Shown here: in pieces, positions 6,613 through 39,268 of the stretch
Layout: each line of letters starts with the position of its first letter
Position numbering within the stretch: position 1 is the first letter of the stretch
DNA from: Saprospiraceae bacterium
Lineage (GTDB): Bacteria; Bacteroidota; Bacteroidia; Chitinophagales; Saprospiraceae
Assembly (NCBI GenBank): GCA_023301005.1
Contig: JALZVK010000035.1
Span: 1-39,268 of the forward strand
Reading direction: 5' to 3'
Length of the DNA: 39,268 nt
Notes under the pieces: generated by a model
The model's database searches: none
What the model saw: only the letters and a program-made list of their open reading frames with translations
Told to the model about the DNA's origin: nothing
Made by a program: the position numbers and the translations under genes

Positions 6613-6617
6613 TTTTA

Positions 6618-6778
6618 GAGCTTGTTGGGGAATTATATTTCGGCTAGAAACGCCCTTTTTTTGATGACACTTCTTTGAAAAAAAAGTCAAATAGCGCAGA
6701 CTATGTTCCTATTTTTTTCCATCGTTTCATCAAAAAAATGAACATTTTTATCTCAAAATCTAATTCCCCAACAAGCCC
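6618..6778. repeat. Fold-back element A, 161 bp, MITE-like
   Basis: The ends are inverted: GAGCTTGTTGGGGAATTA on the left and TAATTCCCCAACAAGCCC on the right (16 bases perfect, plus one mismatch in the outer pairs). TTA flanks both sides (6615-6617 and 6779-6781), compatible with a 3-bp target duplication, although three AT bases can match by chance. The interior also folds back around a centre at ATAGCGCAGACTAT. There is no open reading frame. Size and fold match elements B and C, but its core is more diverged. It fills most of the sigma factor-mutY gap. Confidence 0.65.
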
Positions 6779-6846
6779 TTATAAAAACTACAGATAATTT
6801 TATTTACTTTGGATTCAATTTCTAGCAACAACTAGGAAAAAGATAA

Positions 6847-8499: not shown

Positions 8500-8660
8500 T
8501 AGACTTGTTACCCTTTAAAAATGCTTGTATGAAATTTAGATTTTTTCGATAGTTTATTTTAAAAAATCATTAAATAGTCGCTCTATTAAATTATTATTTA
8601 AAATAAAATAGCGAAAAAATATATTTTCAGACGAGTATTCATTAAAGGATAACAAGTCTA
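8500..8660. repeat. Fold-back element B, about 161 bp
   Basis: Almost the whole segment is one imperfect palindrome with arms of about 78 bases around AATAG-TCGCT-CTATT. The ends are TAGACTTGTTA and TAACAAGTCTA. Both arms carry the core TTTTTTCG(A/C)TA(G/T)TTTATTTTAAA, shared with element C. There is no open reading frame and no obvious target duplication. It lies three bases after the ssb stop codon and would form a very long RNA hairpin if transcribed. Confidence 0.7.
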
Positions 8661-15612: not shown

Positions 15613-15690
15613 AAGAGGCTGTCTTCTAGGTACTGATTTATGAATAATTCATATATTCAAATCAGTACTTAGGAGACAGCCTTTTTTACT
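15613..15690 (+). terminator. Long terminator hairpin after the sprE-like gene
   Basis: aggctgtcttctaggtactgatt and aatcagtacttaggagacagcct pair over 23 bp with two mismatches, and the T-run after the right arm suits termination on the plus strand. The loop itself is partly palindromic. Its left arm AGAGGCTGTCTT matches the terminator at 1033. Confidence 0.75.
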
Positions 15691-31587: not shown

Positions 31588-31752
31588 TAAGTAGTCCCCA
31601 CTAATTAATTGAGTAATTTTTAAACATCTTTTTTCGCTATTCTTCCTTAAAAAATTATTCCATAGCGATGGCTATGAAAGAATTTTTTAAGAAAAACTAT
31701 CGAAAAAATCTAGTCTAAAAATTTCACCCAATTAATTAATGGGGGCTACTTA
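31588..31752. repeat. Fold-back element C, about 165 bp
   Basis: The segment is one long imperfect palindrome: TAAGTAGTCCCCACTAATTAATT at the left and AATTAATTAATGGGGGCTACTTA at the right, meeting at CATAGC-GATG-GCTATG. Both arms hold the core TTTTTTCG(A/C)TA(G/T)T...TTAAAAAATT that also forms element B. No open reading frame. It lies between DUF2256 and the membrane-protein gene upstream of mutL. Confidence 0.7.
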
Positions 31753-39152: not shown

Positions 39153-39209
39153 TTAGAATGTTTGGATGATTAAGTTATTGTTCATAATTATTCATAAGTT
39201 ATTTCGGTT

Positions 39210-39268
39210 TCTTTTTTCATCCTTCTTCGTTAAAAAGCCTCGCCGATGCTAGGCATCGCCTACGTTTT
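39210..39268. repeat. Fold-back element D, partial (cut by window end)
   Basis: The arm CTTTTTTCATCCTTCTTCGTTAAAAAGCC... matches the core arm of element C position by position over much of 39 bases without gaps (CTTTTTTC....TTCTTC.TTAAAAA). The centre is CGATGC-TAG-GCATCG, and the second arm begins CCTACGTTTT. The other half lies past base 39268. Confidence 0.55.

Follow-up and report, generated by a model that had tools for sequence, protein, structure and literature searches.

We propose that a family of short hairpin-forming repeats, of which three members and a putative fourth lie in the window (the whole analysed stretch of 39,268 nucleotides, which is contig C35 of draft genome G000, an assembly of 4.17 Mb in 448 contigs that is 66.9% complete), probably consists of palindromic, TA-targeting, MITE-like elements that depend on DDE-type transposases acting in trans and whose hairpin is under selection on one strand. 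The four units, A, B, C and D, are listed in the table together with the matches of R1, a covariance model of the core trained on 26 copies from G000, B and C among them but neither A nor D.

Table. Elements, conserved cores and target dinucleotides in the window (strand of elements, better-folding strand; of conserved cores, R1 orientation; energies in kcal/mol).
Feature	Position	Strand	Details
Element A	6616..6781	-	166 bp, ends TAGAGCTTGTTGGGGAATT; core diverged, register kept; window minus folds better (-66.6 vs -48.7)
A core, R1 match	6653-6741		27.4 bits, E 0.0019 (A outside training set)
Element B	8500..8660	+	161 bp, TA to TA; read directly; type-1 outer arms (TAGACTTGTTACCCTTTAA); plus folds better by 4, among the weakest cases
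B conserved core	8538..8623	-	71.4 bits (B in training set)
Element C	31588..31752	-	165 bp including both TA; read directly; window minus folds better (-76.5 vs -57.5)
C conserved core	31625..31711	+	96.7 bits (C in training set)
Left TA of C	31588..31589	.	Filled vs empty site in G003
Right TA of C	31751..31752	.	Filled vs empty site in G003
Element D (putative)	39171..39268	-	Left 98 bases, contig end cuts the rest; more diverged member; TAAGTT start; T-run 39212-39217 = element positions 42-47; strand inferred from R1 orientation
D core, R1 match	39208-39268		19.9 bits, E 0.1 (D outside training set)

The boundaries that a first-pass annotation had given B and C proved exact, running from TA to TA. 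The two do share a core, as had been read, with the correction that the core of B runs opposite to that of C. A had been described as the weaker core match, and indeed its core is diverged and stands in the same register. D had been taken for a partial copy beginning at 39210; we likewise regard it as a member cut by the contig end, and place its start at 39171. Both A and D match R1 in exact register, the core start minus 37 giving the TA at 6616 and at 39171, respectively. The R1 score of D is by itself only suggestive of membership, chance matches scoring similarly; membership is favoured because the register, the T-run and the TAAGT start agree. That all four units are intergenic is confirmed by the gene positions, and the neighbouring genes are ordinary (a sigma factor, a MutY-like glycosylase, SSB, a CNNM/CorC protein, MutL and an MscS channel). 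The window also contains an inverted repeat at 15613-15685 with ends AAGAGGCTGTCT..AGACAGCCTTTT, a possible remnant of another MITE.

The suggestion of a dispersed repeat family was also right: the covariance-model scan proposed with it revealed dozens of copies throughout G000 and more in its relatives. In G000, C as BLAST query matched 46 times and R1 67 times, with some places counted on both strands in each figure. R1 matched all four congeners (9, 63, 2 and 12 matches) and, in comparable numbers, G019 from another genus of the family (51); weak matches were present in two more distant genomes, G017 and G037, and 53 of the 61 genomes searched had none. Among 84,980 named species, an exact pattern matched only Saprospiraceae or unclassified Bacteroidetes MAGs. 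Exact patterns had no match in viral contigs, and plasmids and phages likewise gave none. Searched at gathering and relaxed thresholds, Rfam 15 returned no family match, only a sub-threshold plant microRNA model (E 0.16). In G002, identical cores are found in several copies that are placed at contig ends, which suggests recent spread. D and many contig ends in G000 and G002 fall inside elements, so that assemblies undercount them.

MITE-like mobility of the elements is well supported. The filled C locus, upstream of mutL, reads GCATCTTTACT-TA-[AGTAG..CTACT]-TA-TAAAGATATTT, and the matching site in G003 is empty and reads GCATCTTTATT-TA-TAAAAATATTT, with a single TA. One TA at the empty site against a TA at each end of the filled one indicates insertion of a transposable element; this comparison is between species at one exact locus, and fits both TA duplication and insertion beside an existing TA. 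In four congeners, A is absent upstream of mutY and B is absent from the spacer behind ssb, which there has a hairpin of its own; in the window, B precedes a separate hairpin that lies behind ssb. The elements are thus short, non-coding, multicopy and dispersed, with terminal inverted repeats and a single-TA empty site at C, as MITEs are. However, terminal repeats are typically the conserved part of a MITE, and here the ends are the most variable. The first-pass annotation had called the elements unlike an ordinary MITE, which holds for their inverted conservation pattern but not for their mobility, since TA-flanked insertion is MITE-like.

The geometry of the elements is fixed. They measure ~159-167 bp and comprise a terminal TA, a 37-nt outer arm, a core of ~86 nt and a second outer arm of ~40 nt. 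Of 49 clean-ended elements, 43 have a left arm of 37 nt and 47 a total length of 160-167. The search rule required TA ends, let both arm lengths vary within a range and left the outer sequence free; the narrow length peak is therefore informative and the TA is not. A further 22 copies failed the end rule because of nested insertions, degraded ends or truncation. Subfamilies A, C44, G037, G017 and the AGTAACAG-ended one are unrelated in sequence, yet also measure 159-167 bp, and G019 holds further subfamilies of unrelated sequence. Many copies carry, at a constant core position, a GC-rich palindrome of ~20 bp (CCTGCCTGCCGGCAGGCAGG-like), seen in the type-2 copies L137, L138, L139, L142 and L144-L148; a similar hairpin, CCTGTCTACCGACAGG, occurs within the arms in L010, L015, L071, L072 and L077.

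As had been noticed from the window, the inner hairpin is common and the outer arms vary, the ends varying most and the core least. The outer arms differ between types yet remain paired, and the test for compensatory changes that had been proposed shows that differences between copies are strongly compensatory. In an alignment of 25 diverse elements (A2), 47 of the 66 pairs showed double changes. Paired cells amounted to 91.1%, compared with 73.3% after shuffling and 50-59% in slid registers; double-changed cells numbered 283 vs 88 in shuffled alignments, and the covariation score was 0.491 vs 0.173. None of the 500 shuffles reached any of the observed measures. The structure was derived from this same alignment and related sequences inflate covariation counts, yet the gap is large.

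Alternatively, the outer arms may have been swapped between palindromic elements, as modules or tips, rather than having diverged in place. The type-1 arms (TAGACTTGTTACCCTTTAA), which occur 81 times in G000 at up to 3 mismatches vs 9 times for the reversed control, also flank unrelated interiors; L013 combines a type-1 left end with an A-type right end in one element; and the type-1 elements L027, L028 and L150 have a different innermost hairpin that recurs in the AGTAACAG-ended elements L063-L066, as if tips had been exchanged. However, a left arm of 37 nt in nearly all types is what divergence in place would produce, and not what swaps at random points would. We consider swapping somewhat unlikely.

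The two strands of the elements differ markedly in folding. When orientation was taken from the core only, the same strand was the better-folding one in each of the 27 elements compared (mean difference 17.4 kcal/mol), and the outer arms alone favoured it in 24 of the 27, although the elements are related by descent and these counts are not independent. In TAAGT-type outer arms, the better-folding strand has 49 G-U against 9 A-C oppositions (22 against 3 in their terminal part), and G-U minus A-C per element was up in 15, down in 1 and tied in 5. Conserved mismatches on the same strand include a G-A/A-G tandem (21 of 25), A-G (18), G-A (22) and G-G (18). The subfamilies of unrelated sequence show asymmetries of 10-33 kcal/mol. 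A palindrome scan covered ~389 kb of G000 and, in G019, ~388 kb that came mostly from contigs already recognised as carrying copies and so do not sample that genome at random. Across these 776 kb, the class defined by length and pairing, a definition made once the family had been recognised, had a median asymmetry of 17.6 vs 3.6 kcal/mol for other long palindromes (p 2e-7), a few of which reach 10-18 kcal/mol. A different class of repeat in G000 comprises near-perfect palindromes of 266-340 bp with little strand asymmetry (L257:9225-9564, L257:5432-5697, L263:1696-1968 and L290:1199-1503).

This asymmetry bears on whether the elements are simply ordinary MITEs, in which nothing but the ends matters and a single ancestor passed on the conserved core and strand bias, now without function. 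TA ends, A+T-richness, a size below 200 bp and a stem-loop are all standard for a bacterial MITE (PMC2229807), and the copies are indeed related by descent. But the ends are the least conserved part, and the bias recurs in unrelated outer arms and in subfamilies whose cores and ends are both unrelated, which makes this account unlikely. Identity of ends at the DNA level gives no reason for G-U over A-C, and selection on a single strand is thereby favoured. The best reading of the asymmetry is that a folded single strand, either RNA or single-stranded DNA, is under selection. Among an RNA structure, a protein-binding site and a replicating hairpin, the functions first raised for the elements, the asymmetry favours those that use a folded single strand. 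G-T and G-A oppositions stabilise single-stranded DNA hairpins too, so the asymmetry does not separate RNA from single-stranded DNA.

A strand-specific fold spanning the whole element would also be expected if a Y1/HUH or similar enzyme cut and joined one folded strand, in the manner of IS200/IS605-, PATE- or RAYT-like elements, and the single TA at the empty C site fits insertion beside a short target without duplication. However, Y1_Tnp genes do not track the element: there are 0 in G000, G003 and G017, and several in genomes without it. The termini, moreover, are inverted repeats, and in G037 a TAGACTTGTTACCCTTTAA end adjoins a reading frame matching DDE_Tnp_4 (a transposase fragment), indicating that type-1 ends belong to an IS. 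Transposition through single-stranded DNA is thus quite unlikely. TAAGT ends are commoner than type-1 ends, and searches with DDE_Tnp_4, DDE_Tnp_1 and DDE_3 did not find an autonomous TAAGT-ended element. An apparently complete IS with a DDE_Tnp_4 match is present at L182 (G001:C137), with ends GAAGTTGTTTTAAA.

Orientation relative to neighbouring genes showed no preference (3 sense and 3 antisense, by crude ORF calling on many short loci), which indicates that a one-strand RNA is not accounted for by host-gene read-through and that a putative RNA would need its own transcription. It is very improbable that the elements are host regulatory hairpins or transcription terminators spread by chance, for although all are intergenic and the hairpin is long and stable, they lack orientation bias relative to genes, are absent from matching sites in all congeners, and B fronts a separate hairpin behind ssb where congeners have a hairpin without B.

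Returning to MITE-like elements moved in trans, we suggest that the outer ~20 bp would be the transposase recognition ends, which may turn over as elements follow different transposases, and that the conserved core and the one-strand fold may be kept since a folded single strand is needed. The working strand would most likely be an RNA copy and less likely a single-stranded DNA hairpin; a putative RNA might, for example, limit harm to the host, or control or recruit the transposase. More tentatively, and with less than even probability, the subfamilies might form a superfamily of mobile ~160-nt hairpins that reaches from Saprospiraceae-type genomes into at least one further family. Its functional unit would be the single-strand fold of RNA or single-stranded DNA, with its fixed length, conserved G-A mismatches and conserved tip, and the ends would be freely replaced as elements followed different transposases.

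It is by their ends that bacterial MITEs are usually defined, any structure in the transcripts counting as a by-product. The present family reverses this pattern of conservation, and a one-strand fold appears to be selected across unrelated sequences. The elements therefore offer a direct and testable case of whether an RNA or single-stranded DNA hairpin plays a part during a non-autonomous transposon's life cycle, and their fixed-geometry signature could find such elements where sequence search fails. In excerpts of the open-licence literature, we found no precedent for the combination of a conserved centre, paired turnover of the ends and a strand-specific fold.

Several known systems share part of this combination. 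BrickBuilt and other IS5-type MITEs of Porphyromonas gingivalis have IS5-like terminal repeats, and their sites are empty in other strains (PMC4596501); they resemble the present family as Bacteroidota MITEs with empty sites. BrickBuilt carries 23-nt tandem repeats and varies in length, and that account does not mention hairpins or palindromes. REP/BIME sequences with RAYT are dispersed intergenic palindromes as well, REPs being 20-40 bp long with a tag at one end (PMC3733652, PMC2817692). Unlike these, the elements described here measure 160 bp, are flanked by TA and show no association with Y1_Tnp; we rejected a REP/RAYT association because no associated Y1 transposase was present. Integron attC sites are imperfect palindromes of variable sequence that are used as a folded single strand, the strand being chosen by conserved unpaired bases. 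Our elements are similar in being imperfect palindromes with a strand-specific fold, but they are not arrayed, and we noticed no attC end motifs. Small bacterial MITEs that end in TA and give stem-loop transcripts are familiar from earlier work (PMC2229807, PMC10969869). According to the former, Correia/NEMIS, RUP and ERIC/IRU are A+T-rich, below 200 bp, encode no protein, have TA at both ends and inverted repeats, are dispersed between genes, and have transcripts predicted as long stem-loops. One E. coli ERIC copy differed by 2-8 kcal/mol between strands (ad hoc windows). The present elements are, like these families, small, non-coding, TA-ended and intergenic with inverted repeats; in those families, with which our sequence comparison was through Rfam, the ends are the defining part, whereas here the centre is conserved, the ends turn over while remaining paired, the length is constant and folding is far better on one strand than on the other.
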